Both the position numbers and the translations under genes were made by a program. From Roseimicrobium gellanilyticum (lineage in GTDB: Bacteria > Verrucomicrobiota > Verrucomicrobiia > Verrucomicrobiales > Verrucomicrobiaceae): a stretch of 64,000 bases of DNA. Of the stretch, positions 8,442 through 55,721 are shown in pieces. The stretch spans positions 248,001-312,000 of the forward strand of contig NZ_QNRR01000009.1 of assembly GCF_003315205.1 (NCBI RefSeq), in the 5' to 3' direction. Position 1 is the stretch's first letter. The number at the start of each line of letters is the position of its first letter. The notes below the pieces were generated by a model. It searched no databases. It saw only the letters and a program-made list of their open reading frames with translations, and was not told the origin of the DNA.

Positions 8442-8752
8442 AGGCATTTATGAGGAAAGGAAAACGCAGAAAACGGTCGTCTTGGTCAGGGAAGACGCAA
8501 GATTTTCCCGGCTGGAGCATGAATAGCGACCATGAGACGCTCTTCCGTCCAGTTGGGCAATCTCAATCTTGGCTGGCATCCCCAGCCCGGCTGGGACCGA
8601 GTCTGATCTTGGTGTCTTCTGGCAGCGATCTGTTGCCGGGAATTTGATGTTTTTCATCGCTTTATGACGCCCGGAGCACGCTCGCCAAGGGGCGGAGGCC
8701 TGCCCCAGACTGTCTCTTGCTCCGTCCAGTTCCCGCCGCTAGCATCCGGTCC
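8442..8752. other. Divergent intergenic region, no gene seen
   Basis: The 311 bp between the Deg protease (leftward) and the M1 aminopeptidase (rightward) should hold promoters for both. I see a small GC hairpin around 8579-8594 (CCCAGCCCGGCTGGG) but no convincing promoter pair, tRNA or small gene. Short open frames here have no codon or composition support. Confidence 0.5.
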
Positions 8753-11359
8753 ATGTCGCGCATCCTCGCCCTGGCCGTCTTGCTGAGTTGTGGTTTGGAA
8801 CTCACCGCCGTGGGGAAGGAGGAGATGATCTGTCGGTGTGGGCGGGGCCATGCCCATCTCCTGCCCGCCCCTGTCAGCGAAAAGCCGGGGCGCAAATATG
8901 CCCGCGACCGTCATGTGGACGTGCAGCATCTGCAGCTCGATGTGACCCCGGATTTCGCAAAGCGCACCGTCCGGGGCACGGCCACCTTGATTTTCCACCC
9001 CATCGCCAAGCCGGTGTCGGAGCTTGAACTCGATGCCGTGGGCCTTGTGGTGGAAAAGGTCTCCGTGCAGGGCGCGACGCTCGCCAGCCATGAGGTCACG
9101 GATGAGAAGCTGGTGATCCATTTCAAGGATCCCGTGGCGCCGGATGTGCAGGCCTCTGTCAATGTGACGTATAGAGCGCAGCCCGAGCGCGGCCTGTACT
9201 TCCGCACGCCAGAGATGGGTTACAAACCCGGTGATACCCAACTGTGGACCCAGGGTGAGGCGGAGCTGCACCGCTTCTGGTTTCCCTGTTACGACTATCC
9301 GAATGAACGCTTCACCAGCGAGGTCATCTGCCACGTGCCGGAAGGCATGAGCGTGATCTCCAATGGCGTGCTGGTCTCGCAAACAAAGGACGCGGGTGGA
9401 TTGCAGGCCTGGCACTGGAGGCAGGACAAGCCGCATGTGAACTACCTCGTGGCGCTCGCGGCGGGGTACTTCCACAAACTCGAGGACAAGGTGGGCGAGC
9501 TGCCGCTCACGCTCTATGTGCCTCCTTCGGAGAAGGAGCAGGCTGCAGGGGCTTTCCGGGACACCAAGAAGATCATCGAGTTCTACCAGGACGAAATCGG
9601 CGTGGCCTTTCCCTGGGACAAGTATGCGCAGGTGTACTGCCTGGATTTCGTGGCGGGCGGCATGGAGAACACGAGCTGCACCTTCAATACGGCGTCCATG
9701 CTCTTCCGTGATGAAACGGAGCAGCTCACCACCCTGCACCGTCTGGATGCGCATGAGACCGCGCACCAGTGGTTCGGAGATCTGGTGACCTGCCGTGACT
9801 GGTCACACCTCTGGCTGAATGAGGGATTCGCCTCCTACTATACCGTCCTTTATGAGGAAGCGAAGTCAGGTCGCGACGCCATGCTCTACTCCATGTGGCG
9901 CGAAGCCCAGCGCGTGCTGGAGAAGAATGACACGCGCCCCACGGTGTGGCGGGACTACAAGGACCCCATGGAGCAGTTTGACCAGCGTGTGTATCCGAAG
10001 GGCGCCTGGATTCTGCACATGATCCGGGCACGCCTGGGTCCGGACCTGTATCGCAAGGCCATCCGCAGGTATCTGGAAAAGCAGCGGGGCACGGTGGCGA
10101 CCACGGATGATCTGATGGACATCCTGGAAGAGGCCTCGGGATTGTCCTTCGATCAGTTTGCTGATCAATGGCTCTATCACGGAGGCTTGCCGGAACTGAA
10201 TGTGAGCTACTCCTGGGATGCCGGCACCAAGCAGGCGAAGCTGAATGTGAAGCAGACGCAGAAGGTTTCCCCGGAGGTGTTGCTCTTCAATCTGGATCTA
10301 CCCGTGCGGTTCTGGGTGAAAGGCGAAGCGAAGCCCCGTGACTTCAGCGTGACCGTGAGCAAGGTGGAAGAGGACTTCCATTTCCCGCTGCCCTCCGCTC
10401 CAGAACTCGTGCGTGTGGATCCCGACTACACCCTGCTGGCGAAAATGAGTTTCACGCCACCGCCGGACATGCTGAAGCGGCAGCTCCAGGGAGATGTCAT
10501 CGGCCGCATGCTGGCAGCGCAAGCGCTGGGAGGGAGGAAAGATGCCGAGAGCGCCGCACAGCTGGCCGACGTGCTGAACAAGGACGCCTTCCACGGAGTG
10601 CGCAGCGAAGCTGCGAAGGCACTGAAGAAGATGAATACACCGGAGGCGCGTGCGCATCTCGCGCGTAGTCTCTCCCAGCCGGATGCCCGGGTGCGCAGTG
10701 ACGTGGTGGAGGCCCTCACAGCCTTCCCCCACCCTGAAGCGTGGGATGCCCTGATGAAACAGGCTGCGATGGAGAAGAATCCCGAAGTGCTCGCGGAGAT
10801 CATCAAGACCTGGAGCCAGCGTCCAGGCGATGCCGCCATCACATCAGCGCTCATGAAGCATCTGGAATCCAACACGTACTGGAACACGGTGGCCGCGGCG
10901 GCGATTGCCACCTTCCGCGCGCAGGATGATGCGAGCGCGGTGCCAGCCATTCTCGCGCGCTTGCAGAAAACGCCCCAGGAGTTTGCCACCTGGGATCGGT
11001 CGGCGGCGTTGGAGGCACTCGGGTTCCTTGCGCGTGATGAGAAGAATCCCCAGCGTACTGCGGTGTTGCATTATCTGACGGAGCACCTCAATAATCCCCG
11101 TGAATCCCTGCGCGTGGCCGCGGCGAAGTCGCTTGGTCTGCTGCGGGATCCCCGCGCGCTTGCCTGGCTTGCGCCACTGGCGGCCACCAGCAAGCCCTTC
11201 AAGGATCCCGTGCGTGATGCCGCGGAGAAATCCATCACGGCACTCGAAGCGGCCCAGGCCGGTCCTCAGGAGCTGAAGGACGTGTGGAACAAGCTCCAGG
11301 AGCTGCAGAAGAAGTCCGAGGACATGCAGCGCCAGCTGGAGAAAATGCCGGCGAAGTGA
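8753..11359 (+). CDS. M1-family zinc aminopeptidase with C-terminal HEAT repeats
   Basis: 868 residues from the ATG at 8753 (MSRILALAVLLSCGLELTAVG), which gives an export signal; the earlier ATG at 8717 adds no conserved sequence. The M1 catalytic set is complete: GGMEN at 302-306, zinc motif HETAH at 334-338 and the third zinc ligand E357 in NEGF, 18 residues later. From about residue 580 the chain turns into helical repeats (for example AAQLADVLNKDAFHGVRSEAAKALKKMN), typical HEAT or PBS-lyase-like units, and ends in a short coiled coil (LQELQKKSEDMQRQLEKMP). It removes N-terminal residues from peptides, probably in the periplasm. Only 9 bp separate it from creC, so the two are probably co-transcribed. 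Confidence 0.9.
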   Translation: MSRILALAVLLSCGLELTAVGKEEMICRCGRGHAHLLPAPVSEKPGRKYARDRHVDVQHLQLDVTPDFAKRTVRGTATLIFHPIAKPVSELELDAVGLVVEKVSVQGATLASHEVTDEKLVIHFKDPVAPDVQASVNVTYRAQPERGLYFRTPEMGYKPGDTQLWTQGEAELHRFWFPCYDYPNERFTSEVICHVPEGMSVISNGVLVSQTKDAGGLQAWHWRQDKPHVNYLVALAAGYFHKLEDKVGELPLTLYVPPSEKEQAAGAFRDTKKIIEFYQDEIGVAFPWDKYAQVYCLDFVAGGMENTSCTFNTASMLFRDETEQLTTLHRLDAHETAHQWFGDLVTCRDWSHLWLNEGFASYYTVLYEEAKSGRDAMLYSMWREAQRVLEKNDTRPTVWRDYKDPMEQFDQRVYPKGAWILHMIRARLGPDLYRKAIRRYLEKQRGTVATTDDLMDILEEASGLSFDQFADQWLYHGGLPELNVSYSWDAGTKQAKLNVKQTQKVSPEVLLFNLDLPVRFWVKGEAKPRDFSVTVSKVEEDFHFPLPSAPELVRVDPDYTLLAKMSFTPPPDMLKRQLQGDVIGRMLAAQALGGRKDAESAAQLADVLNKDAFHGVRSEAAKALKKMNTPEARAHLARSLSQPDARVRSDVVEALTAFPHPEAWDALMKQAAMEKNPEVLAEIIKTWSQRPGDAAITSALMKHLESNTYWNTVAAAAIATFRAQDDASAVPAILARLQKTPQEFATWDRSAALEALGFLARDEKNPQRTAVLHYLTEHLNNPRESLRVAAAKSLGLLRDPRALAWLAPLAATSKPFKDPVRDAAEKSITALEAAQAGPQELKDVWNKLQELQKKSEDMQRQLEKMPAK

Positions 11360-11368
11360 GCCCGTATC

Positions 11369-12808
11369 ATGTCCCTCACCTCACGGCTTCTTCTCGGCTT
11401 TGCCCTCATCGCGGGCATTGGATTCTGGCTGATGATGGATCAGGTGCTGGAACGTGTGGAGCGCCAGTACCTGGAGGCGGCGGAGGAACCGATGGTGGAC
11501 ATGGCCAATGTGATGGCCGAGGTGCTGGCACGCGACGTGAAACGTGACGGTCGGATCGACACGCAATCCATTCAGGTCGCCATGGAGGCGGCGAAGATTC
11601 GAATCTTCGAGGCGAAGATCTACTCGCACACGAAAACGCAGATCAACATGGACGTGTATGTCACCGATGTGCAAGGCAAGGTGCTGTACGATTCATTGCA
11701 TCCGGAACTCATCGGAACCGTGCTCTCGAAAAGGGATGTGAACCTGGCAAAGGTAGGGCTCTATGGAGCGCGCTCCACCCGTGATGACGAGAGGGATCCG
11801 AACTCCTCCATCATGTACGTGGCGGCGCCGATCCGCTCCGACGGCGACATTGTCGGCGTGGTGGCCGTGGCGAAGCCGCAGAAGAGCACCTTCAAGTTCC
11901 GCGATGAAACCAAGGCATGGTTGATTCGCACCATCGGCTCATTGGTGCTCTGCATGGTGTTGGGGTCTTTCCTGCTGGCGCGGTGGACCACGCGGCCCAT
12001 TCGACGTCTCACAGATTATGCCGAGGCCATCACGCGTGGTGAGCGGCCTCCTGTGCCAAAGCTGCACGGCAAGGAAATGAAAACGCTCGGAACCGCTTTC
12101 GAAAAAATGCGTGATACGCTGGAGAACCGTGAAAGCGTGGAACATTATGTGCAGACGCTCACGCACGAACTCAAGAGCCCGGTGGCGGCAATCCGTGGCG
12201 CGGCCGAGCTCATGCAGGAGGAAGCCATGCCGGAAGCGCAGCGCGCCCGCTTCCTGCGAAACATTCAGGTGGAGTCCCTCCGGCTGCAGGATCTGCTGGA
12301 GCGTCTCCTTTCACTCGCTGCCTTGGAGAACAAGAAGGCCCTTGATGAACCGGCCAAGGTCGATCTCAGCGCGATCGCCCGTGAAGTGTGCGACCACTTC
12401 ACCGCGCCTCTCGCCCAGCGTGGACTCAAGCTCGACTGCTGGGTGCAGGACGGCGTGCACGTGCGGGGGGATGGTTTCCTGCTACAGCTGGCCTTCACCA
12501 ACCTCGCGCAGAACGCGGTGGATTTTTCCCCCGATGGCGGCGCCGTTTCCATTGGATTGAAGACGGTGGATGATCGCGCCTGCCTGGTCGTGGAAGATGA
12601 AGGGCCCGGGCTGCCGGATTACGCGAAGGGACGCGTCTTTGAGCGATTCTACTCCCTTCCCCGTCCGCACAACGGAAAGAAAAGCAGCGGCCTTGGCTTG
12701 TGCTTTGTGAAGGAAGCCGCCGCGTTGCACTCGGGCACAGTGGAGTTGGAGAATCGCGATGGTGGCAAGGGCGCGCGAGCGGTGTTCAGTATTCCGGTGC
12801 GCAGTTGA
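11369..12808 (+). CDS. creC: Sensor histidine kinase CreC
   Basis: 479 residues. An N-terminal span (LLLGFALIAGIGFWLMM) and a second near residues 187-205 enclose a periplasmic sensor domain with the CreC signatures YVTDVQGKVLYDS and YGARSTRDDERDPNSSIMYVAAPI. HAMP, HisKA (THELKSPVAAIRGAAELM, phospho-accepting H266) and HATPase domains follow, with N-box NLAQNAVDFSP, G1 DEGPGLPDY, FERFYSLPRPHNGKKSSGLG. These blocks match E. coli CreC closely. It should phosphorylate CreB in response to envelope or metabolic stress. The cognate regulator is not adjacent but lies at 28413-29174. It follows the M1 peptidase gene by 9 bp. Confidence 0.93.
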   Translation: MSLTSRLLLGFALIAGIGFWLMMDQVLERVERQYLEAAEEPMVDMANVMAEVLARDVKRDGRIDTQSIQVAMEAAKIRIFEAKIYSHTKTQINMDVYVTDVQGKVLYDSLHPELIGTVLSKRDVNLAKVGLYGARSTRDDERDPNSSIMYVAAPIRSDGDIVGVVAVAKPQKSTFKFRDETKAWLIRTIGSLVLCMVLGSFLLARWTTRPIRRLTDYAEAITRGERPPVPKLHGKEMKTLGTAFEKMRDTLENRESVEHYVQTLTHELKSPVAAIRGAAELMQEEAMPEAQRARFLRNIQVESLRLQDLLERLLSLAALENKKALDEPAKVDLSAIAREVCDHFTAPLAQRGLKLDCWVQDGVHVRGDGFLLQLAFTNLAQNAVDFSPDGGAVSIGLKTVDDRACLVVEDEGPGLPDYAKGRVFERFYSLPRPHNGKKSSGLGLCFVKEAAALHSGTVELENRDGGKGARAVFSIPVRS

Positions 12809-12947: not shown

Positions 12948-13556
12948 ATGATCCGCAAATCTTCCCTACTCCTCGGTGCGCTTGGCGCATTCCTTCTGGC
13001 ATCCTGCGCCTCCAGGCCCCAGGAAAACACTGGTGCGGACTACCTCGCAGGTCTCGGGAATGCTGCACCGCAGGCACCACAGTCGCTGGGTGTGGCAGAG
13101 CACACCTCGTATTGGGATGACGATGGCACCAGTGGCGCCGCCTACATCGTGGTGGACCTGCGTCGTCAGGTGGCGGAGTTCTATCGTGGCGGCCACATCA
13201 TTGGGGTGGCGGCCATCTCATCTGGCGTGGAAAATCGCGCCACTCCTGCGGGCGACTACAAGATTCTGGAAAAGGACATCGACCACGAGTCCTCCTCGTA
13301 TGGCATCATTGAGGACAGCTCAGGCAAGACTGTGAACGCAGACGCGACTCCCCGTACCCCGCGTCCTCCCGGCACCCGCTATGTGCCTGCACCCATGCAC
13401 TACTTCATGCGCATCACCTGGGATGGCGTGGGCATGCACGAAGGTTTCCTTCCCGGATATCCCGCCAGCCACGGCTGCATCCGCATGGACCGCCGCGTGG
13501 TGCCCAAGTTCTATGAAAACGCCTACGTGGGCATGCCGGTGAAGGTGGTCCGGTAG
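12948..13556 (+). CDS. Lipoprotein L,D-transpeptidase (YkuD domain)
   Basis: 202 residues from the ATG at 12948 (MIRKSSLLLGALGAFLLASC); the longer upstream frame is not conserved-looking and would hide the signal. The lipobox LASC predicts lipidation at C20. The YkuD catalytic motif is clear near the C-terminus: H175 and C177 in SHGCIRMDRR. The N-terminal strand region AAYIVVDLRRQVAEFYRGGHII is also typical. Such enzymes make 3-3 peptidoglycan cross-links or attach proteins to peptidoglycan. The gene follows creC by 139 bp on the same strand and has its own terminator. Three TTCACG words lie in its 65-bp leader. Confidence 0.9.
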   Translation: MIRKSSLLLGALGAFLLASCASRPQENTGADYLAGLGNAAPQAPQSLGVAEHTSYWDDDGTSGAAYIVVDLRRQVAEFYRGGHIIGVAAISSGVENRATPAGDYKILEKDIDHESSSYGIIEDSSGKTVNADATPRTPRPPGTRYVPAPMHYFMRITWDGVGMHEGFLPGYPASHGCIRMDRRVVPKFYENAYVGMPVKVVR

Positions 13557-21494: not shown

Positions 21495-23084
21495 ATGGCC
21501 AGAGGCACCCTAGTAAATCTTGATGCGATGCTCCCACGCGAGGACTTTGCGTTGGTCGATGACGACAACCCGCCGAGTTACGAAAAATTCGAGAGGATAT
21601 CTGTCAAAGATCTAAAAGAGGATGGAATAATTCCACTCCTTCGCAAGCCAGATTTTCAAAGAGAGACCAATCACTGGACTCCAGAGCAAGTTGCCTCATT
21701 GCTCGAATGTTTTGTTAACGGCGACCTGATACCTTCAGTTATTGTCTGGAAGTCACCAACCTATCTCTTCGTGATTGATGGAGGTCATAGACTAAGTGCA
21801 CTTCGAGCATGGCTTCTCGACGACTACGGGGACGCGCCAACCTCTCTCGCTTTTTTTGGTCGCTCAGTATCGAACGAGCAGGAAAGGGCTGCGCAGCGAA
21901 CACGAGAACTAGTGTCTCAAAAGATTGGGAACTTTAAACACTTTCAGGCACGGCTGAGCGATCCAAATCTTGATGATCGCGAGAGACGACGTATCAACAC
22001 GGTCCTGACACGAGGAATTCCTGTGCAATGGGTAGAAGGCAACGCCGAAAAGGCTGAGGCTTCCTTCTTTAAAATCAATACCAAAGGAACTCCGCTTGAT
22101 GACATAGAGGAACTTTTGCTTTCGAATCGGCGCAAGCCAATCGCTGTTGCGTCACGGGCGGTGATCCGGGCGGGAATGGGACACCGGTACTGGAGTCGAT
22201 TCCCTTCGCCGACATGTGACGAAGTTGAGCAGCTGGCCAAAACGATCCATAGCACTCTCTTTGAACCTGAATACAATACTCCAGTTAAGACATTGGATCT
22301 TCCGTTAGGAGGTTCTTCTGGAGTTCGTGCCGCCCTCCAAGTGCTTATCGAGTTCATGTTGTTTGCCATCCGCAACCAAGCAAATGAGCCGAAACATCTA
22401 AAAGACCAAGCGGACGATCCCGACGGCTCTTCAACCAAAGAGGCACTGCGGGAAGCACTCAATTTGGCATTGAGGATGACCGGAAACGACAAGGGCAGCT
22501 TGGGGTTGCACCCGGCGATTTATTTCTATGGACCCACTGGACGCCACCTGAGTCCAATGTTCTTGGGTATGGCCCTTCTGCTTAGTCGAAAGATGATCAA
22601 CAACGACAAGGGGTTTTTTGAAAAATTTACAAAGGTACGCTCTAAACTCGAAGACGCGTTGATTGCTCACAAGGATCTCGTCGCCACAATCTTGCAGAAG
22701 ACTATTAGCAGAAACAGAGTGCAAAAGTACGCTAGTTTGATCGATTCGCTTGTTGGCTACATCGTATCTGATCCGAATAGCAGTCTCGATGATGCTCAAA
22801 TCGTATCGCTCTCTGGGCTATCTGGTAAAATCATTACAGGTAGCGCGGACAATGCTGGAAAGGACTTTTCAGATGAAACCAAGAGCGCTGTCTTTATTAA
22901 CGCAGCCCTTAAAGGAGCTCTCCGTTGTCCTATCTGCAATGGATTTCTAGACTCTGCAAAATCGATCTCATACGATCACATAAGGGAGCGGGCTCGCGGT
23001 GGGTTGGGAAGTGAGGCGAACTGCCAACTAACCCATCCATACTGCAATCAGGCAGTGAAAAACAAGCTCCCGCTGACGCCGTGA
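21495..23084 (+). CDS. DUF262-HNH nuclease (GmrSD/SspE-like), probable phage defence
   Basis: 529 residues. The N-terminus has the DUF262 (ParB/sulfiredoxin-fold) signatures PDFQRE at 52-57 and IDGGHRLSAL at 94-103, which in GmrS and SspE bind and hydrolyse nucleotide. The middle is helical. The C-terminus is an HNH nuclease: C478 and C481 (CPIC), D494-H495, N509, H514 and C517 in HPYCNQAVKN. Proteins with this domain pair act as modification-dependent restriction enzymes, so phage defence is likely but not shown. The gene is clearly AT-richer than its neighbours and uses different codons. A good AAGGA ribosome site precedes the ATG. It stands between a terminator and the Cre cluster promoter, as a single-gene insertion. 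Confidence 0.85.
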   Translation: MARGTLVNLDAMLPREDFALVDDDNPPSYEKFERISVKDLKEDGIIPLLRKPDFQRETNHWTPEQVASLLECFVNGDLIPSVIVWKSPTYLFVIDGGHRLSALRAWLLDDYGDAPTSLAFFGRSVSNEQERAAQRTRELVSQKIGNFKHFQARLSDPNLDDRERRRINTVLTRGIPVQWVEGNAEKAEASFFKINTKGTPLDDIEELLLSNRRKPIAVASRAVIRAGMGHRYWSRFPSPTCDEVEQLAKTIHSTLFEPEYNTPVKTLDLPLGGSSGVRAALQVLIEFMLFAIRNQANEPKHLKDQADDPDGSSTKEALREALNLALRMTGNDKGSLGLHPAIYFYGPTGRHLSPMFLGMALLLSRKMINNDKGFFEKFTKVRSKLEDALIAHKDLVATILQKTISRNRVQKYASLIDSLVGYIVSDPNSSLDDAQIVSLSGLSGKIITGSADNAGKDFSDETKSAVFINAALKGALRCPICNGFLDSAKSISYDHIRERARGGLGSEANCQLTHPYCNQAVKNKLPLTP

Positions 23085-23129: not shown

Positions 23130-23167
23130 TTCACCGCATTTTCATGTGGTGTTCATCGAAGCTTCAT
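23130..23167 (+). promoter_or_regulatory. Candidate CreB-binding site: four TTCA(C/T) repeats at 11-bp spacing
   Basis: TTCAC at 23130 and TTCAT at 23141, 23152 and 23163 form a direct-repeat array with exact 11-bp spacing, that is pentamer plus six free bases each time. A fifth TTCAC lies off-phase at 23113. The E. coli CreB site is TTCAC-N6-TTCAC, which has the same spacing. The array ends 43 bp before the first gene of the cluster that contains two CreD homologues and CreB. This is a strong inferred operator. Confidence 0.65.
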
Positions 23168-23210: not shown

Positions 23211-24917
23211 ATGACTTCCACACGCCTCTCCCTCGTCTGCTACATCGCCATGCAGGCAGCAGTCTCAGGAACCTCTACAGCGCAGACCCCGGCATCACCC
23301 CTGCCCACCCTGGAGAATGCCGAAGTGCGCATCCCGTACGCGGAGTTGCGAAAGCTGTGGGAGATCGCTCATGGCATGGACCCACAAGAACTGCCCAAGG
23401 GCGCGCTCCTGTCGGCCGAGTACCGCGCGGACGTCTCCGGTGGCAAGCTGAAGCTGGAGGCCGACTTCAGGGTGGAGTCCTTTGGCAAGCGTTGGGAACG
23501 CATCCGCCTCATGGGTGCGGGTCCCGCCGTGGCCAGTGTCGAGCCTGCCGATGCGCGACTGTTGGTAGAGGGAGAGGATCTCTTCCTGCTGACCCACACG
23601 GAAGGCGCCACCTCGGTGAAGGTCCGTTTTGTGGAGACTGTATTGCCTGTGCTGGGAAGCGGTCCTTTCTTGGAGCTGCAATCCGCGCCGTGTGCGGTGG
23701 CCGCATTGAAGGTCAGCGGTGTGGCGGCGAAGCAACTTCTCAAGCTGGGTGAGCAGCGGGTGGACGCAGCGGCAGATGGCGCCCTGCAGATCCCACTCTC
23801 ACCCAAAGGTGGGAAGAATCTCCTGAGCCTGGTCGATGCCGCTTCCGAGCCACAGCCGGATCCTCCACCGCCGCCGCTGCAGGCCAGCGAATGGACGGTG
23901 CAGAATGAAGTGCTCGCCATCGAGGGTGATGGTGAAATCAAACACCACGCGCGCGTCCGCCTGCTGGCGGTGAACGGTTCGGCGCTGGAGGCCACGCTGA
24001 TGATGCCGGCCAATGCGCGTGGGGTTGCGCTTGCCAAGGCAGATGACATTCGCGACTGGAAACTCGTCCGCAATTCGGATGGGAGTGCGGAACTGCGCTT
24101 GCGCTGGCAGACACGCGACATCATGGAGCGCGAGTTCCGCCTTTCCTATGCCCTGCCCCAACTGCCGCTGGCGACGGCCTGGGAGCTTCGCGCTCCTGCC
24201 GTCGCGGGTGAGAACAAGACGAAGACACTGTACATGTTCGCGCTGCAGGCCGGCGTGGAGCTCAGTGTGCCCGACATGCAGTCTCCCGTGCCGCCCATCC
24301 GGCTTTCCAAGTGGATTGCCGAGGAGTCCAAGGCGACGGAGTTCGGCACGGTGTCGGGTGCGGCCTCAGTGACGGTGGCTGCGAAGCTGCTGCCGCGTGT
24401 GGACACCGCTTCTGCCGCCATCACCAAAAGCACCTGCACCACGAAGCTGGTGGCGGATGGTTCGGTGCTGACAGAGTCGAAGATGGAAATCGAACATCAG
24501 CAGCCGGAGCGCTGGGTGGTCGTTCTCCCTGAGAACAGCACCTTGCTGAAGTGCGCGGTAAACAACGCGCCGGTGAATCCCATCGTGCGCGCCGCTGGAG
24601 AACTGGAGGTGCCTCTCACCGGCAGCGGCAAGAGCGAAGTTCAGCTCTCGTACACCGAGGCAAAGGGCAAGCTCGATGCCGTGGAAGGTCAGACAGCCTT
24701 GGAACTCGCGCAGACACCTCTCTTCATTCATGAAGTGCTCTGGAATGTGGAAATCCCGGAGGGGTATGAAGCTGTCGGCGCCGAGGGGAATGTGGAATTC
24801 GCCACCCAGGGCACGAACACGAGTGGAAATGCCGCCGCTCTCAGTCTGATCAAAAAGCTCTGCCGCAATGAGCGCCCGCAGATTGCACTCTTCTACCGCA
24901 AGCGCGGTCTCGAATAG
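23211..24917 (+). CDS. Secreted beta-rich protein of the Cre cluster, unknown function
   Basis: 568 residues from the ATG at 23211 (MTSTRLSLVCYIAMQAAVSGTSTAQ), a signal peptide; the in-frame ATG at 23166 lies inside the repeat array region and is unlikely. The mature protein begins VRIPYAELRKLWE and is dominated by short beta strands (LSAEYRADVSGGKLKLEADFRVES; EVQLSYTEAKGKL). There is a Pro stretch near residue 215 (PQPDPPPPPLQ). No catalytic motif or membrane span appears. It is first in the cluster with the CreD-like proteins, 58 bp upstream of the first, and is the gene closest to the candidate CreB site. It may be a periplasmic partner of the CreD proteins. Confidence 0.75.
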   Translation: MTSTRLSLVCYIAMQAAVSGTSTAQTPASPLPTLENAEVRIPYAELRKLWEIAHGMDPQELPKGALLSAEYRADVSGGKLKLEADFRVESFGKRWERIRLMGAGPAVASVEPADARLLVEGEDLFLLTHTEGATSVKVRFVETVLPVLGSGPFLELQSAPCAVAALKVSGVAAKQLLKLGEQRVDAAADGALQIPLSPKGGKNLLSLVDAASEPQPDPPPPPLQASEWTVQNEVLAIEGDGEIKHHARVRLLAVNGSALEATLMMPANARGVALAKADDIRDWKLVRNSDGSAELRLRWQTRDIMEREFRLSYALPQLPLATAWELRAPAVAGENKTKTLYMFALQAGVELSVPDMQSPVPPIRLSKWIAEESKATEFGTVSGAASVTVAAKLLPRVDTASAAITKSTCTTKLVADGSVLTESKMEIEHQQPERWVVVLPENSTLLKCAVNNAPVNPIVRAAGELEVPLTGSGKSEVQLSYTEAKGKLDAVEGQTALELAQTPLFIHEVLWNVEIPEGYEAVGAEGNVEFATQGTNTSGNAAALSLIKKLCRNERPQIALFYRKRGLE

Positions 24918-24974
24918 CACGAGCGCCACGCTCTCTCCTTCCGCATGTCCCGTCACCTCTGACCCCTCTTCGCC

Positions 24975-26207
24975 ATGACCGTTCTCCGCATCTTTACCAT
25001 CGCCCTCATCACGCTTTGCACCGCGGTGGCATGGGCCATTCTTGGCAGTACGCTGCAAATTCGCACCCACGAATCCAGCAGCCAGATGGGCAGCGAGGTG
25101 GCGGATGTGTGGGGCTTTCCCCTGAAGCAGCTTCATCCCTCCGCCTTCTATCACGCGCCCACGGGGAACAATCGCAAGGTGACGCTCCAGCCGGACTCGA
25201 GCCACGTCGAGGTGACGCTGCAGTCTGAACCAAAGAAGCGCGGGCTCCTCTGGCACCGCACCTACTCGGTACAATTCAGTGCGGCCTATCAGTTCACGAA
25301 TCCCACGCCGATTCCACAGACCATCTATGTGCAGTACCAGCTCCCCTCGAAAGAGGCGAGCTACACCAATTTCGCTTTCACACTGGGAGATGAATCGCTG
25401 CGCCGCGCGGTCCCGAAGGCCGGAGTCATCACCGAGGCGCTCACGGTACCGGCGAAGGGAACGGCCCCCTTGAAGGTTTCCTACGAGTCCCGCGGCATGG
25501 ATTCCTGGCAATACACCTTCCCCGACGCGAGCCGCGTGCAGGGATTCGAGCTGGTCATGCAGACGGACTTCGCTGAGATCAACTTCCCCAGCGGCACCGG
25601 CTCTCCAACGGCGCGTGATCGTCTGAAGGGCCGTTACTGGTGGACTTATCCGGATGTGCTTTCCGCGCCTGCCATTGGCATGGACATGCCCAAGGTGCTG
25701 AAGGCCGGCCCCGTGGCTGCGCGCATTTCTTTCTTCGCACCAGTATCGCTGGTGTTCTTCTTCACGGTGCTGATGCTCATGGGCGTGGTGATGGGCATCA
25801 ATCTCCATCCCATGAACTACTTCTTCCTCGCGGCCGGATGTTTTGCTTTCCAGCTCCTGTTTGCCTACCTTGTGGATCTGGTGCCCTTGCATCTCAGCTT
25901 CGTGATCGCGGCCGTGGTCTCGCTGCTGCTCGTTTGTGGTTATATCCGTGCGGTGGGCGGGAAGAGGATGCTGAGGGTCGCCCTGCCGGCGCAGTTCGCG
26001 TACATGGTGCTCTTCAGCTACAGCTTCTTCTTTGATGGCATGACAGGGCTGATGATCACCATCGGTGCCATCGTCACCCTCGCCCTGCTCATGACCTTCA
26101 CCGCGCGGGTGAACTGGGCCGAGCAACTGGCTGGCAAGAAGCGCGTCCTGCCTACGCCACCCACCATTCCGCCCGCGCCTCCAGGCAAGCTCCCTGCCGC
26201 AGTGTGA
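24975..26207 (+). CDS. creD: CreD-like inner membrane protein, copy 1
   Basis: 410 residues. An N-terminal span (IFTIALITLCTAVAWAILG) is followed by a periplasmic domain of about 230 residues with the CreD-type segments PKKRGLLWHRTYSVQFSAAY and FTNPTPIPQTIYVQYQLP. About six C-terminal spans begin with FFAPVSLVFFFTVLMLM and contain INLHPMNYFFLAAGCFAFQLL, the CreD C-terminal hallmark, then FFFDGMTGLMITIGAIVTLALLM and a closing VNWAEQL. CreD in gammaproteobacteria is the main Cre regulon target and helps envelope integrity. It shares obvious identity with the next gene, a tandem duplication. A Pro-rich C-terminal tail is cytoplasmic. Confidence 0.85.
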   Translation: MTVLRIFTIALITLCTAVAWAILGSTLQIRTHESSSQMGSEVADVWGFPLKQLHPSAFYHAPTGNNRKVTLQPDSSHVEVTLQSEPKKRGLLWHRTYSVQFSAAYQFTNPTPIPQTIYVQYQLPSKEASYTNFAFTLGDESLRRAVPKAGVITEALTVPAKGTAPLKVSYESRGMDSWQYTFPDASRVQGFELVMQTDFAEINFPSGTGSPTARDRLKGRYWWTYPDVLSAPAIGMDMPKVLKAGPVAARISFFAPVSLVFFFTVLMLMGVVMGINLHPMNYFFLAAGCFAFQLLFAYLVDLVPLHLSFVIAAVVSLLLVCGYIRAVGGKRMLRVALPAQFAYMVLFSYSFFFDGMTGLMITIGAIVTLALLMTFTARVNWAEQLAGKKRVLPTPPTIPPAPPGKLPAAV

Positions 26208-26249
26208 GTGATCTTGCTCCTCCCCGTTTCATTCAACCCACCCATCGCC

Positions 26250-27488
26250 ATGACACCGTCACGCCTCGTCAGTATTGTCGTCATCACGGGCGCCGCCACC
26301 CTTGCCTGGTTTGTCCTGGGCGCCACGCTGCACCAGCGTTCGCGTGCTTCCGCTTCACGCATGGGGAATGAGGTGCGGCAGGTCTGGGGTCCCGGCCTTG
26401 CCCAGCCGCACCTGACGCTGCTGGCGGACAGCACCTCCGGGTCCGGAGATCCCGAAGTCATGCTGCCCACCTCTTCGAAGGTGGAGGCGCGCATTGCGTA
26501 TTCGCCCAAGAAGCGCGGCCTGCTCTGGCATCGCACCTACGACGTGGAGTTCTCCGCGCGCTATGAAATCACCAACACGGCGGCCAGCGCGCGCAACGTG
26601 CGCGTGCAGATGTCCCTGCCCACCAGGAACACCAGCTATGACAACTTCGCCTTCCAGCTCGGTGAAGGCGCTGCCACCGATATCGCACCGCACAATGGCA
26701 TGGTGGAGACCGTGAAGCTCATTCCTGCCGGCGCTACCTTGCCCCTGACGGTGCGCTACAATGCACGCGGTCTGGATCGCTGGTCCTATACCTTCCCGCA
26801 GGGCAGCCGGGTGAAAAACTTCACGCTCACCATGGGAACGAACTTCGATGACGTGAGTTTCCCCGTGGGAGCCACCTCACCCACCAAGCTGGAACCTGTG
26901 GCCAAAGGTGAAGGTGTGGATCTCGTGTGGAACTACACCGACACCATCGACGCGCGTGACATCGCGGTGGACATGCCCCGTTTGTTGAATGCAGGGCCGG
27001 TGATTGCGCGCATCACCTTCTTTGCACCGGTGTCACTTGTGCTTTTCTTCGGCGTGCTGGTGGTGGTGAGCATGCTGCGGGGGATCCATCTTCATCCCAT
27101 GACGTATGCCTTTCTCGCGGCCGGGTTCTTCACCTTCCATCTGCTGCTGGCGTATCTGGGGGATCAGATGTCCCTGCATGCGGCATTCCTGATCGCCTCG
27201 GTGATTTCACTCGTGATGGTGAGCGGCTACCTGCATGCGGTGGCCGGCAAGTCGATCAGCATGGTCGCCGTGCCGGCGCAGCTCGCGTACATGGTGCTCT
27301 TCAGCTACAGCTTCTTCTTCGACGGCATGACAGGTCTCACGCTCACCATCACTGCCGTGGCCACGCTCGCGCTCCTGATGGTTGCGACCGCGAAGGTGAA
27401 CTGGGAAGAAGTGTTCCGCAGGGGTCGTGAGGCATTGCTGGAAAGAAAGAGCAAGAGCGGCCCCCTGCCGTCTCCAGCAACCACCTGA
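26250..27488 (+). CDS. creD: CreD-like inner membrane protein, copy 2
   Basis: 412 residues from the ATG at 26250 (MTPSRLVSIVVITGAATLAWFVLG); a GTG at 26208 directly after the previous stop would also be in frame. The topology repeats copy 1: one N-terminal span, a periplasmic domain (SPKKRGLLWHRTYDVEFSARYEI, cited in part, and MDRW-like LDRWSYTFPQGSR) and a C-terminal helical bundle with IHLHPMTYAFLAAGFFTFHLL and FFFDGMTGLTLTITAVATLALLM. The periplasmic parts differ more than the membrane parts, so the two copies may see different partners or form a heteromer. It lies 42 bp after copy 1 in the same operon. Confidence 0.85.
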   Translation: MTPSRLVSIVVITGAATLAWFVLGATLHQRSRASASRMGNEVRQVWGPGLAQPHLTLLADSTSGSGDPEVMLPTSSKVEARIAYSPKKRGLLWHRTYDVEFSARYEITNTAASARNVRVQMSLPTRNTSYDNFAFQLGEGAATDIAPHNGMVETVKLIPAGATLPLTVRYNARGLDRWSYTFPQGSRVKNFTLTMGTNFDDVSFPVGATSPTKLEPVAKGEGVDLVWNYTDTIDARDIAVDMPRLLNAGPVIARITFFAPVSLVLFFGVLVVVSMLRGIHLHPMTYAFLAAGFFTFHLLLAYLGDQMSLHAAFLIASVISLVMVSGYLHAVAGKSISMVAVPAQLAYMVLFSYSFFFDGMTGLTLTITAVATLALLMVATAKVNWEEVFRRGREALLERKSKSGPLPSPATT

Positions 27489-27525
27489 TCGCCCCTCGCG
27501 CGCATCCTGCACCCACCCTGCTCCC

Positions 27526-27933
27526 ATGGAACCTGAACAGCTATATCTCATCTTTGGCGCAGTGGCTGCGCTCTGCGCCGCGGTCGTCATCGCAATGGCC
27601 GTCTGTGTGGCATTCGTCATGGTGATGATCGGTGTGGTGACCATTTCCATCATCGTGGGATTCTCCACAGGAAAGGTGTTGTCCGGACTGCGCGCCTTGT
27701 TGGTGCAGCTGGGTGTACTCGCAGGGGCGCCGGTGGGTGCCGTGGCGGCACTGGTGCTTGCCCAGACCTGGCCTGACCTCTCCCATCATGGTGTGATACT
27801 GGCCATGGGCGGCGCTACGGGTGCCTTCGGTGGACTCGTGATGGCGCTGCTGGCGAATCGTGTGGTGCAGATGGCGGCGGATCGCTTTCCGAAGCTGCGC
27901 CTGCCTCGCACGACCTTGATTCCTTCATCTTAA
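27526..27933 (+). CDS. Small multi-span membrane protein of the Cre cluster
   Basis: 135 residues from the ATG at 27526 (MEPEQLYLIFGAVAALCAAVVIAMAVCVAFVMV, cited in part). There are four predicted spans, the first two forming a hydrophobic hairpin rich in Val, Ala and Ile, the others at residues 65-85 and 92-112 with a Gly-rich GGATGAFGGLVMALL. The C-terminus is basic (RFPKLRLPRTTL). I do not recognise the family. It lies 37 bp after the second creD and 12 bp before the next gene, so it is part of the operon. Confidence 0.7.
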   Translation: MEPEQLYLIFGAVAALCAAVVIAMAVCVAFVMVMIGVVTISIIVGFSTGKVLSGLRALLVQLGVLAGAPVGAVAALVLAQTWPDLSHHGVILAMGGATGAFGGLVMALLANRVVQMAADRFPKLRLPRTTLIPSS

Positions 27934-27945
27934 GCCCATGGGTAT

Positions 27946-28356
27946 ATGAAATGGATTGTAGTGTTGCTGGTCCTCACGGCGGGGATGTTTGGGATCGCCC
28001 ACATGTACTTGAAACGCGACGTCGCCCATGTGTCGCAGGCACGAAGCTTCGAGTACCCGGTGCTGGGCCTGGTGCTACCGGAGGGCGGTTCCCCAATGTT
28101 CGAGCCTGTGGCCCAGAACCTCGAGGTGCTCCAGCAGGCGGCGCATCTCCAGATCCTTCGCAAGCATGGCTGCAAACGCGTCACCCACCTCGTGTTGCAC
28201 CTGGACTGCCACTACTACTTCGCAGACAATGCCATGGTCTACGTGACCACCTGGGCCAGTCCCGGCAGACCACCCCGGCTTGTCGAGACCCGTTCGTGGG
28301 CCGGTCCCCCCGCCGAGTTTGACGGTTATCACACGGAACTCTTGCCCGAAGCGTGA
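27946..28356 (+). CDS. Single-span protein of the Cre cluster, unknown function
   Basis: 136 residues. An N-terminal span (MKWIVVLLVLTAGMFGIAHMYL) is followed by an outer domain with a repeated H-x-L-H-L-D-C-H-Y pattern (THLVLHLDCHYYFADNAMVYVTTW) and a C-terminal acidic end. The clustered His and Cys could bind metal, but this is a guess. Its TGA stop overlaps a GTG at 28353 that is in frame with CreB, so translation of creB may be coupled. No family recognised. Confidence 0.7.
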   Translation: MKWIVVLLVLTAGMFGIAHMYLKRDVAHVSQARSFEYPVLGLVLPEGGSPMFEPVAQNLEVLQQAAHLQILRKHGCKRVTHLVLHLDCHYYFADNAMVYVTTWASPGRPPRLVETRSWAGPPAEFDGYHTELLPEA

Positions 28357-28412
28357 CTTCGATCATCAATGCAATGACACTGCTTCCCCTCATACCCACG
28401 CCTTCCGCCGCC

Positions 28413-29174
28413 ATGCTGCCCCCGGTCCGCCCACGCATTTTGATCGTTGAGGACGAGCCGTCCATCGCGGACAACATCGTGTACTCATTGGAGTCAGAGG
28501 GTTTCGCTCCTTGCGCCTGCAGCACCGGAGCCGAGGCGATCGCACGTCTGGAGGCCGAGGACTTCGCCCTGGCTGTCCTGGATGTTGGCCTGCCGGATAC
28601 GACGGGCTTCGAGCTCTGTCGTGAGCTTCGGCTCATCAAGGATGTGCCGGTGATCTTTCTCACGGCACGCTCTTCAGAGCTGGACCGCGTAGTGGGTTTG
28701 GAAATTGGAGGCGATGATTACATCTGCAAACCTTTCAGCCCTCGCGAACTCACCGCACGTGTGCGTGCCGTGCTGCGTCGGGCGGACCACCGGCCCAAAG
28801 GCGCGCCTGTTGCTGCCGCCGCTTCCTCTTCGACGGAATCTTCGCCCGCCGTCGCTGCAGCACCTCCTGAGGAAAGTGCCACCCCGGTATCGGTGGACGA
28901 AACCCGCTGCCAGATCCGCTACTTTGGCGAGGTGCTGCCTCTTTCCCGCTACGAGTACCGGCTGCTGCAAACCTTTGCCAAACATCCCGGCCGCGTCTTC
29001 AGCCGGGCTCAGCTCATGGAGCATGCCAGCGACGAACCCGAAGCCGCCATGGAACGCACCGTAGACGCCCACGTGAAATCCCTGCGCGCCAAGATGAAGA
29101 CCGTGCGCAACGAGGTAGAGCCCATCGTCACGCACCGCGGACTGGGGTACTCCCTGGCGGAGAAGTGGGTGTAG
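28413..29174 (+). CDS. creB: Response regulator CreB
   Basis: 253 residues from the ATG at 28413 (MLPPVRPRILIVEDEP), which leaves the same short lead-in as E. coli CreB; a GTG at 28353 overlapping the previous stop would add 20 residues. The receiver domain has the phospho-acceptor D57 in LDVGLPDTTGFELCREL, TARSSELDRVVGLEIGGDDYICKPFSPREL, all close to CreB. A long Ala/Ser/Pro linker of about 40 residues replaces the short CreB hinge. The winged-helix OmpR-type domain (LSRYEYRLLQTFAKHPGRVFSRAQLM, then HRGLGYSL) is intact. It should act with CreC encoded at 11369-12808. Its stop codon abuts the stop of the convergent gene with no gap. Confidence 0.92.
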   Translation: MLPPVRPRILIVEDEPSIADNIVYSLESEGFAPCACSTGAEAIARLEAEDFALAVLDVGLPDTTGFELCRELRLIKDVPVIFLTARSSELDRVVGLEIGGDDYICKPFSPRELTARVRAVLRRADHRPKGAPVAAAASSSTESSPAVAAAPPEESATPVSVDETRCQIRYFGEVLPLSRYEYRLLQTFAKHPGRVFSRAQLMEHASDEPEAAMERTVDAHVKSLRAKMKTVRNEVEPIVTHRGLGYSLAEKWV

Positions 29175-29912
29175 TCAGGGAGAGGTGGATGCGCTTACGG
29201 GCGCGGGAGCAAAAGGGTCTGAGCCAGCTGGAGCCGGGGCCATACCGCCCACGGCCGGGTCGAAAGGATCTGCTGGTGCCGGAGCGAACGGATCTCCCAC
29301 TGGCGGGCCTGCAGCAAGCAGGTCTTCTTCGAATAGATTTTCCAGGTCCATGACCACTCCATCGTCGAGGGCCTCCAATACCAACTGTTCGGCAGCAGTG
29401 TAAGGAACAGGGTCCAAAGGCGGGGTCCACGTGACCGTCTCTAGCCACCGCTTGTGCAGCCACTCTTTCTGCCGATCCTGAGCCCATTTCTCCAGTCGAT
29501 CCGGCAGCCACTCCAGTTCATGAACCTTACCGTACGCGTAGCTTGAATCGCGCAAATTTACTCCAATACGGGAGGGTGTGCTCAAGGGACGGTTGGTCAC
29601 GAAACGTATACTCGTGCCTGGAGCCAGCGTCTGTGGCCCGAGACCAAATCCACAGCGGTATCCTGAAAGCTCCTTCCATTCGCCGCCTTCCCAGTACAGA
29701 TCCACAAAACGAGGGTCAGTGGGCTCATATCCCATGTAGTGCAGCTCGTGGGTGGTGTGATTGGTAAGCTCAAGTTCATACCAGTCCACGCCGTCCCTGA
29801 TCACAGTTCCGACTACACGCAGCTCTGCTTTGGGAGACACATCCGGCATCACGAGGGACAAAGCCGTAGCCAGGCTGCAGAGCAGAACACCACCGACGAT
29901 CCACTTCTTCAC
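29175..29912 (-). CDS. Single-span protein with Ig-like outer domain, unknown function
   Basis: 245 residues from a GTG at 29910-29912 whose GTGA overlaps the TGA stop of the upstream gene, a coupling signature; the frame is open to 29999 but that would overlap further. After the N-terminal span (WIVGGVLLCSLATALSLVM) comes LRVVGTVIRDGVDWYELELTNHTTHELHYMGYEP (cited in part), the same layout as the upstream neighbour (IRVVQIVSHDAEQNYLLEVVNPGSRDLEYWGYG) and, more loosely, the protein at 4651-5157. Both end the domain with a basic-aromatic FEWLP/FDWLP segment. The C-terminal 60 residues are a Pro/Asp/Ala repeat (PVGDPFAPAPADPFDPA). No enzyme motif. Confidence 0.75.
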   Translation of the reverse strand: MKKWIVGGVLLCSLATALSLVMPDVSPKAELRVVGTVIRDGVDWYELELTNHTTHELHYMGYEPTDPRFVDLYWEGGEWKELSGYRCGFGLGPQTLAPGTSIRFVTNRPLSTPSRIGVNLRDSSYAYGKVHELEWLPDRLEKWAQDRQKEWLHKRWLETVTWTPPLDPVPYTAAEQLVLEALDDGVVMDLENLFEEDLLAAGPPVGDPFAPAPADPFDPAVGGMAPAPAGSDPFAPAPVSASTSP

Positions 29913-55241: not shown

Positions 55242-55328
55242 AGGCAGTTTGCGCATTCATGGGGTTTTCACACCCAATTCATGTGACAAAAAAGGCTCAC
55301 ATGCCGAGGCTGGGAATCATCCTCGACC

Positions 55329-55721
55329 ATGCACCCGAGATACCTGTCATTCCTCTGCCTATTGCTGACTCTGGTTTCCTGCGGCGGTGAGCCGCTGCAG
55401 GGGCCGGAGGTGGCGCGCCAGAGGGCGCTTTGGGAGCCGAAGGGCTGGACCTTCGTGGAAGTCTGCGGCGACTCGAGCTGGGCACATGAATCCAGTGAGG
55501 TTCGCCTGCAAGGCACGGAACCCAGTCTCAAGGTCTTTGCTGAGACAAGCGGTGTCGACGGACGTGGTCCCAAGAGCACCTCTGAGAAAACCTATGCGGA
55601 GCCCGGATACACCTACCTGGAGGTCAAGATGAGTGCCGGGTTTACGGATTGTTATTCCATCGTCTTCAAAAGGAAGGTCGACGCCAACGACGATGCGAAA
55701 CGGAATGCGGCAGTCCCCTGA
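55329..55721 (+). CDS. Small lipoprotein, unknown function
   Basis: 130 residues starting MHPRYLSFLCLLLTLVSCGG; the lipobox LVSC predicts lipidation. The mature part has a beta-rich core (WTFVEVCGDSSWAHESSEVRLQG; YLEVKMSAGFTDCYSIVFKRKV) with two Cys. No family recognised. A CATGTGA-N10-TCACATG dyad at 55280-55303 lies just upstream. No clear link to neighbours. Confidence 0.65.
   Translation: MHPRYLSFLCLLLTLVSCGGEPLQGPEVARQRALWEPKGWTFVEVCGDSSWAHESSEVRLQGTEPSLKVFAETSGVDGRGPKSTSEKTYAEPGYTYLEVKMSAGFTDCYSIVFKRKVDANDDAKRNAAVP

Follow-up and report, generated by a model that had tools for sequence, protein, structure and literature searches.

What does a CreBC two-component system control in a member of the Verrucomicrobiota? 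The question is raised by a 64,000-nucleotide stretch of Roseimicrobium gellanilyticum DNA (contig NZ_QNRR01000009.1, positions 248,001 to 312,000; hereafter the window) that carries genes for CreB, CreC and two CreD-like membrane proteins, CreD1 and CreD2. An initial annotation of the window had suggested an expanded Cre envelope response marked by the doubled CreD. We found that the novelty of the locus is not the doubled CreD but a partnership: in Verrucomicrobiota, a cre/blr tag (direct repeats that are the predicted binding site of CreB) is followed by a gene for a beta-rich protein, which we call HEAD as a working name, and then by a gene for a short, divergent CreD. Other genes in the genome are linked to the same tag. 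We think it probable (about 0.75) that the locus represents the CreBC regulon as it exists in Verrucomicrobiota, consisting of CreC and CreB, the tag, and an operon with HEAD and short CreD. A search of the open-access literature found no title on CreBC in Verrucomicrobiota.

CreB and CreC of the window

CreC scored 525 bits against the NCBIfam CreC equivalog (cut-off 356; next model 146.1 bits) and CreB scored 303.7 bits against the CreB equivalog (cut-off 273; next model 203.9 bits). Because each protein matches its own curated model best and above the cut-off, we assign the system, on the strength of these sequence matches, to CreBC. No other OmpR/EnvZ-type model fitted either protein better, and the Cre identity given in the initial annotation stands, as do the genes it named, all of which are open reading frames (23211-29174, plus CreC; Table 1). 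CreB and CreC are 44% and 40% identical to their E. coli K-12 counterparts, and the DNA-binding region of CreB is closely alike in the two organisms.

The cluster at 23211-29174 consists of six genes on the + strand, separated by 57, 42, 37, 12 and 56 nt. Based on these short gaps and the common strand, HEAD-CreD1-CreD2-sm1-sm2-creB is likely a single operon. CreC is 10.3 kb from the tag and 15.6 kb from CreB. This split, pointed out in the initial annotation, is shared with G486, the only other genome found for the genus (comparison genomes and loci are given as G and L numbers); in both, CreC is separate and creB is in the operon.

A cre/blr tag upstream of HEAD

Upstream of HEAD is an array that was absent from the initial annotation: one TTCAC followed by three TTCAT, starting at 23130, 23141, 23152 and 23163, with an exact 11-bp period. 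TTCAC-N6-TTCAC is the cre/blr tag, described in passages of a review (PMC3660660) and of a primary paper (PMC4689548) as required for the action of CreB or BlrA. Repeats with this 11-bp period are also present in the creD promoter of E. coli K-12 (TTCAC-N6-TTCAC-N6-TTCAA). The window thus has the published pair with C or T at the last place, and across the named loci described below the two letters occur in about equal shares (the search pattern allowed C or T only). The array at 23130-23167 fits the four-repeat pattern with 0 mismatches; in shuffled versions of the window, 0.02 such arrays occurred even when up to 3 mismatches were allowed. Tag pairs were also more frequent in the window (6) than in its shuffles (mean 0.40), and in the whole genome the tag triple pattern gave 13 overlapping matches at 8 sites, compared to none for the same pattern read backward.

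The tag follows CreBC across genomes. Triples were present in 10 of 10 genomes of the family with both CreB and CreC and in none of the 3 where CreBC was not found; the backward control gave 0 in all 13. (Family genomes for the presence of CreB and CreC were chosen mainly by CreD status.) We also searched named loci, the best 80 of 482 confirmed relatives, all titled as Verrucomicrobiota lineages; the window's own genome was possibly left out of the collection behind them. In 11 of the 80 the upstream region was cut, leaving 69 evaluable, and in 61 of these a tag pair at spacing 11 was located within 400 nt before HEAD. Control spacings of 6-10 and 12-21 bp gave 0-3 loci each, and a spacing of 22, twice 11, gave 58. 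Within the first 6 kb of each of the 80 loci, we found a + strand tag pair in 64; 100 Markov shuffles averaged 2.0 such loci and never gave more than 6.

The tag is not confined to loci with HEAD. Among 30 fetched loci with canonical CreD, 29 were evaluable and 12 had a tag pair within 400 nt upstream (spacings 8-10 and 12-16 gave 0-2). Because canonical CreD loci carry the tag too, the tag would appear either to be older than the HEAD-CreD unit or to have moved with CreB. In nine genomes with CreC and no CreD, inspected in the regions around CreC, the tag is just before creB in three (L249, L250, L252), and one (L255) has tags nearby that are not before creB. The cre/blr site has been kept nearly letter for letter from gammaproteobacteria to Verrucomicrobiota, and CreB regulons of Verrucomicrobiota should therefore be predictable from sequence.

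HEAD and short CreD form a conserved unit

The order tag, HEAD, divergent short CreD is conserved in Verrucomicrobiota. Of the 80 named loci, 76 have HEAD ending no more than 600 nt before a short CreD; several of the 80 recur among the loci used to train the HEAD model and are not independent of it. The four loci without HEAD are L145, L159 and L173, in which CreD is within 156 nt of the start of the locus, and L195. Similarly, HEAD is present in 33 of 40 fetched short-CreD loci; the seven without it include two that start inside or right before CreD (L090, L114) and one with a broken CreD (L113). HEAD was not found within ~1.5 kb of canonical CreD in any of 30 loci, some of which are cut by contig ends. 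The secreted protein at the head of the cluster, which the initial annotation counted towards the expanded response, is no peculiarity of this locus: HEAD is the usual partner of short CreD. A lack of conservation, which that annotation had named as grounds for refutation, was not seen for the core, the tag and HEAD-short CreD.

Counts in 288 genomes of the phylum, which are free of the choice by CreD status, gave the same picture (Table 1 lists the window's own genes). Short CreD was found in 15 genomes, strong HEAD (at least 160 bits) in 13, CreC in 48 and canonical CreD in 53. Five or six best first-look candidates were scored per genome, which makes absences softer here than in the CreBC searches of family genomes. 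Strong HEAD was present in 12 of the 15 genomes with short CreD and in 1 of the 273 without (Fisher p 1e-17), and CreC in 14 of the 15 and 34 of the 273 (p 3e-11); both tests take genomes as independent, though they are related. All 13 genomes with strong HEAD have CreC, none of the 53 with canonical CreD has strong HEAD, and genomes with short and canonical CreD do not overlap. The short-CreD count left out weak hits in G177 (78.6 bits) and G218 (114 bits), and two of the 70 genomes with a Pfam CreD match were put in neither CreD class (G013, a 63-residue piece; G057, 22.3 bits). Of 49 genomes with any HEAD hit, 36 had weaker hits only, all those shown being in frames of more than 1100 residues. 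Outside the 288-genome set, G344 has a short CreD and, in a frame of 467 residues, a second but weak hit.

CreBC seems also to work without CreD in Verrucomicrobiota, because 14 of the 48 genomes with CreC have neither kind (nine of them were inspected around CreC as described above, plus G180, which is on short contigs).

Some relatives of these proteins have other forms. Large HEAD-like proteins, up to ~2500 aa long, are encoded in many of the phylum's genomes, and one region (G000:C1:250001-260875) has three frames, 1288-1588 aa in length, in which parts resemble HEAD. Loci L054-L059 have open frames of ~490-750 aa in which the CreD periplasmic region is present and the C-terminal membrane part is absent.

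The short CreD proteins and the tandem pair

Both CreDs of the window pass the Pfam CreD cut-off (PF06123, cut-off 23; CreD1, 38.8 bits; CreD2, 46.6 bits) and miss that of the NCBIfam CreD equivalog (NF008712, cut-off 275; 38.5 and 46.3 bits). By the NCBIfam standard these sequences are not CreD equivalogs. Canonical CreDs of Verrucomicrobiota score 150-541 bits to the CreD model at their best place.

It is possible that the short CreDs are unrelated multi-span membrane proteins that match the profile through hydrophobic C-termini. The match is confined to CreD positions ~280 to 428, in the C-terminal membrane part, at 25-54 bits, and BLASTP with E. coli CreD gave weak matches to this part only (E 1e-4 for CreD1, 5e-8 for CreD2). 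However, these scores are above the Pfam gathering cut-off, the predicted model of CreD1 has an N-terminal helix, a periplasmic beta domain and C-terminal helices, and the proteins go with the same tag and the same two-component system as CreD. In addition, the 15 short and 53 canonical CreD genomes are non-overlapping, as expected for replacements. A match between unrelated proteins is thus unlikely, and we treat the short proteins as divergent CreDs.

The doubling of CreD, which the initial annotation took for an expansion of the Cre response, is not general but confined to one genus. Short CreD is present in 40 of 68 family genomes and the tandem pair in 2 of the 68, both of this genus; none of the 80 named loci has a pair (L153 has two pieces of one broken CreD). 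The Cre system in that proposal was right, and a general expansion by a second CreD was not supported. Nor does the pair look like a recent duplication for dosage without further meaning. CreD1 and CreD2 are adjacent, of the same family and in the same operon, but identity is only 49% between the two and 87% between each of them and the corresponding CreD of G486. In a tree (rooted for drawing only), CreD2 joined the CreD of G066 at 100/100 support, and CreD1 fell among the family's HEAD-linked CreDs, where support was lower (88/94 and 85/80); further rows without HEAD (L093, L094, L114) were elsewhere. G066 also has two small frames between CreD and CreB, its order being tag, CreD, two small frames, CreB, with no HEAD. 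These comparisons make recent dosage duplication extremely improbable, and the sequences indicate that the pair is not a recent duplication. The simplest notion, from one comparison genome, is that the window operon combines two units, tag-HEAD-CreD1 and one like that of G066, tag-CreD2-small-small-CreB.

The small frames of G066 are not alike sm1 or sm2 by phmmer. We rejected sm1 and sm2 as conserved parts of the cluster: of 40 loci examined, only those of the window and G486 have them, and the 80 named loci have neither.

Predicted folds of HEAD and CreD

HEAD had no Pfam match (0 families at E up to 1, M1 domains included) and no NCBIfam match, and sequence searches of the PDB gave no relative with an E value of 1 or below. 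The predicted model of HEAD is beta-rich, with a mean predicted local distance difference test (pLDDT) of 88.2 and a predicted template modelling score (pTM) of 0.50, a value that leaves the arrangement of domains unsure. The last domain (model range 402-561) matched the N-domain of an M1 aminopeptidase (1z1w; Z 13.4, root-mean-square deviation [rmsd] 3.4, 148 residues), and the last two domains matched two domains of Ost1 (8b6l_O; Z 15.1). The rmsd of this second match is 24.6 over 307 residues, indicating that the tilt between domains differs between HEAD and Ost1. The last two domains of HEAD are thus modelled as the M1-aminopeptidase N-domain/Ost1 fold type.

The CreD1 model (pLDDT 91.6, pTM 0.80) has one N-terminal helix ahead of the periplasmic domain. 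The best match of this domain is 4g2a (Z 15.1, rmsd 3.0, 181 residues), a structure whose title says no more than putative nutrient binding protein, and the Ost1/M1 group matched less well, at Z ~9-10. Foldseek hits to pentameric ligand-gated channels were rejected as a chance likeness of a beta domain plus helices (TM-scores near 0.2).

With beta domains of the M1-aminopeptidase N-domain type in both proteins and an enzyme domain in neither, HEAD and CreD would more likely bind or scaffold in the envelope than act as catalysts there. Many of the fold matches of HEAD are M1 aminopeptidases, as would be expected if it were an envelope enzyme (a peptidase or hydrolase) and not a binding protein. 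However, these matches cover the non-catalytic N-terminal domain type, Pfam finds no M1 domain, and only four columns are invariant in 34 sequences (G417, G493, P516, Y562), a count lowered by rows that lack the middle part. An enzymatic HEAD is therefore quite improbable, and binding remains the preferred role. A short form of HEAD, ~350-360 residues with the middle part skipped, occurs in 11 of 33 loci.

A model for regulation

Our reading of the locus is as follows. CreC, a membrane sensor kinase, would sense disturbance of the cell envelope and phosphorylate CreB, as in its family. CreB would bind the TTCAC/T-N6 direct repeats at 23130-23167 and control, most likely switch on, the HEAD-CreD1-CreD2-sm1-sm2-creB operon. 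Because creB is the last gene of this tag-led operon, CreBC would also raise its own level. HEAD, in the periplasm, would act jointly with the short CreD in the inner membrane, and the cluster would have a role in envelope stress.

Several observations weigh against this reading. In Stenotrophomonas maltophilia, creD rises on removal of creBC, according to a section of PMC4689548; the tag therefore need not mean activation, and the direction of control by CreB is the weakest step that we infer. No perfect tag pair was found upstream of HEAD in 8 of the 69 evaluable named loci, or in the 13 kb around CreC in 5 of the 9 CreD-less genomes. The 14 genomes with CreC and neither kind of CreD (including G178, G215, G237, G240, G243, G251, G268 and G277) belong here as well, as do G066 and G269, which have short CreD without HEAD; G269 is also without CreC and its CreD frame is broken. 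HEAD and CreD are not one sequence family, a notion that we rejected by profile comparison (E 0.38, probability 0.2). To these are added the missed equivalog cut-off of the short CreDs, their alignment to CreD through the C-terminal membrane part only, and the low pTM of the HEAD model.

The location of CreBC is a further point. In some genomes it adjoins the unit, in the order HEAD-CreD-CreB-CreC (L080, L099, L104) or CreB-CreC-HEAD-CreD (L112, L115, with a CreC that passes the cut-off). In G217, G172 and G254, it is elsewhere, far from HEAD-CreD, and in L082, L085 and L087 the adjoining pair fits the CreC and CreB models best but is just under the cut-offs (kinase, 300-350 bits, cut-off 356; regulator, 241-259, cut-off 273). 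PhoB/OmpR-class regulators often bind direct repeats ~11 bp apart. It could be, then, that the repeats serve another regulator of this type and that CreBC is merely a neighbour. This is very improbable: the repeats have the sequence of the E. coli cre tag, tag triples go with CreBC in the family genomes (10 with, 0 of 3 without), and in three of the nine CreD-less genomes the tag is just before creB. We therefore retain CreB as the predicted regulator.

Comparison to known Cre systems

The window and E. coli creABCD, Aeromonas blrAB, and creBCD of Pseudomonas and Stenotrophomonas are alike in having CreB and CreC equivalogs, TTCAC-N6 repeats before a transcript that includes CreD, and a linked membrane protein of the Pfam CreD family. 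The window differs in having HEAD ahead of CreD, a CreD that is short and divergent, a second CreD, two small membrane genes, a CreC that is 10.3 kb away, and creB inside the tag-led operon. The compact creA-B-C-D order with one creD is not found in the window, where CreC is split away and creB is last. There was no hit to CreA in the window, the only sequence searched (best tblastn match of E. coli CreA, E 0.96). Canonical CreDs of Verrucomicrobiota (53 of 288 genomes) share the Pfam family and the tag pair, and differ in their far higher CreD scores and in having no HEAD nearby. The likeness of HEAD to the luminal domains of Ost1/ribophorin I and the N-terminal domains of M1 aminopeptidases is in fold only, HEAD having neither a Pfam match nor a catalytic domain.

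In P. aeruginosa, CreBC is a major player in a response that confers beta-lactam resistance; its clearest target is creD, although removal of creD lowers resistance only slightly (PMC2654508). Loss of CreD damages the envelope in Stenotrophomonas, and little has been published on the function of CreD, a structural role or a channel having been proposed (both from parts of PMC4689548). As a near-constant partner gene of CreD in another phylum, HEAD is a concrete lead to that function. The Verrucomicrobiota relative of Cre would combine the same DNA switch as in E. coli with a different and undescribed pair of envelope proteins.

Other genes linked to the tag

At 6 of the 8 tag sites in the genome, the tag faces the start of a gene on the same strand. 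These genes are HEAD; one for a VIT-VWA protein, followed by an exosortase-family gene; one for a membrane protein of no family; the lipoprotein-like gene at 55329; one for a Nudix hydrolase; and one for a GFO/IDH/MocA oxidoreductase (~140 nt away). In E. coli, too, a Nudix gene is linked to CreBC.

The VIT-VWA locus (L227:1080-4664) has a five-repeat tag, and its VIT-VWA protein, which matches PEP-CTERM weakly, reaches 390 bits against TIGR03788 (cut-off 552). A VIT-VWA protein linked to the tag and followed by an exosortase-family gene is reminiscent of the dedicated sortase system of marine proteobacteria, which has its own kinase and regulator and a VIT-VWA target. In contrast to that system, the VIT-VWA score is below cut-off, the enzyme is an exosortase and not a sortase, and the presumed regulator is CreB.

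A tentative and rather doubtful extension of our model is that HEAD and short CreD are one inner-membrane/periplasm machine of non-catalytic M1-N-type domains, of an Ost1-like design, that holds or hands over envelope clients under stress, and that CreBC uses it together with the exosortase/VIT-VWA surface system as one programme of cell-surface repair. If this were true, CreD would gain a partner and a role.

At the other 2 sites the tag is reversed, 50-54 nt from the start of a gene on the opposite strand. Seven loci in five genomes share this geometry: L226 and L230 (G000), L232 and L235 (G486), L236 (G217), L241 (G491) and L245 (G066). At L230:2768-4217, a protein with neither a Pfam nor an NCBIfam family starts 51-54 nt from the reversed tag, an arrangement kept in G000, G486, G217, G491 and G066. 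It is possible that the reversed tag of L230 serves in repression.

Genes of the window and neighbours

Table 1. Features of the window that are discussed in the text
Feature	Coordinates	Strand	Description
HEAD (working name)	23211..24917	+	568 aa; N-terminal hydrophobic helix, signal-peptide-like (no predictor run), beta-rich thereafter
CreD1	24975..26207	+	Short divergent CreD; N-terminal helix, periplasmic beta domain, C-terminal membrane helices; groups with HEAD-linked CreDs
CreD2	26250..27488	+	Second of the tandem short CreDs, likewise divergent; placed in the tree with CreD of G066, a genome without HEAD
sm1	27526..27933	+	Small membrane protein; among examined loci only here and in G486
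sm2	27946..28356	+	Small protein with N-terminal membrane helix; among examined loci only here and in G486
CreB	28413..29174	+	OmpR/PhoB-type response regulator; likely start 28413, frame open from 28353
CreC	11369..12808	+	Sensor histidine kinase
cre/blr-tag array	23130..23167	+	Four direct repeats TTCAC/T, 11-bp period; predicted CreB binding site
Second cre/blr-tag array	55256..55282	+	Three repeats
Small lipoprotein-like gene (by eye)	55329..55721	+	46 nt downstream of second tag; candidate CreB target; no Pfam family

We considered the lipoprotein gene, an M1 peptidase gene and the gene at 29175 as conserved neighbours of the cluster and rejected them; outside the window only the M1 peptidase was matched, in G486. 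An LD-transpeptidase (YkuD) gene (12948-13556) is directly after CreC, likewise in G486. A search of 132 loci found a related LD-transpeptidase near HEAD-CreD in three further genomes (L091/L156, L160, L166), a distribution that hints at a link though not a general one.

Between CreC and CreB the window and G486 are for the most part collinear, but G486 lacks the GmrSD-type gene at 21495-23084. This gene, of the GmrSD-N plus HNH nuclease type, is directly before the tag and looks inserted; the alignment to G486 breaks at about 21414 of the window and resumes at about 23163. The M1 peptidase, which has HEAT repeats (8717-11359), ends 9 nt before CreC and also adjoins CreC in G486. Its N-domain is of the same fold type that HEAD matches.

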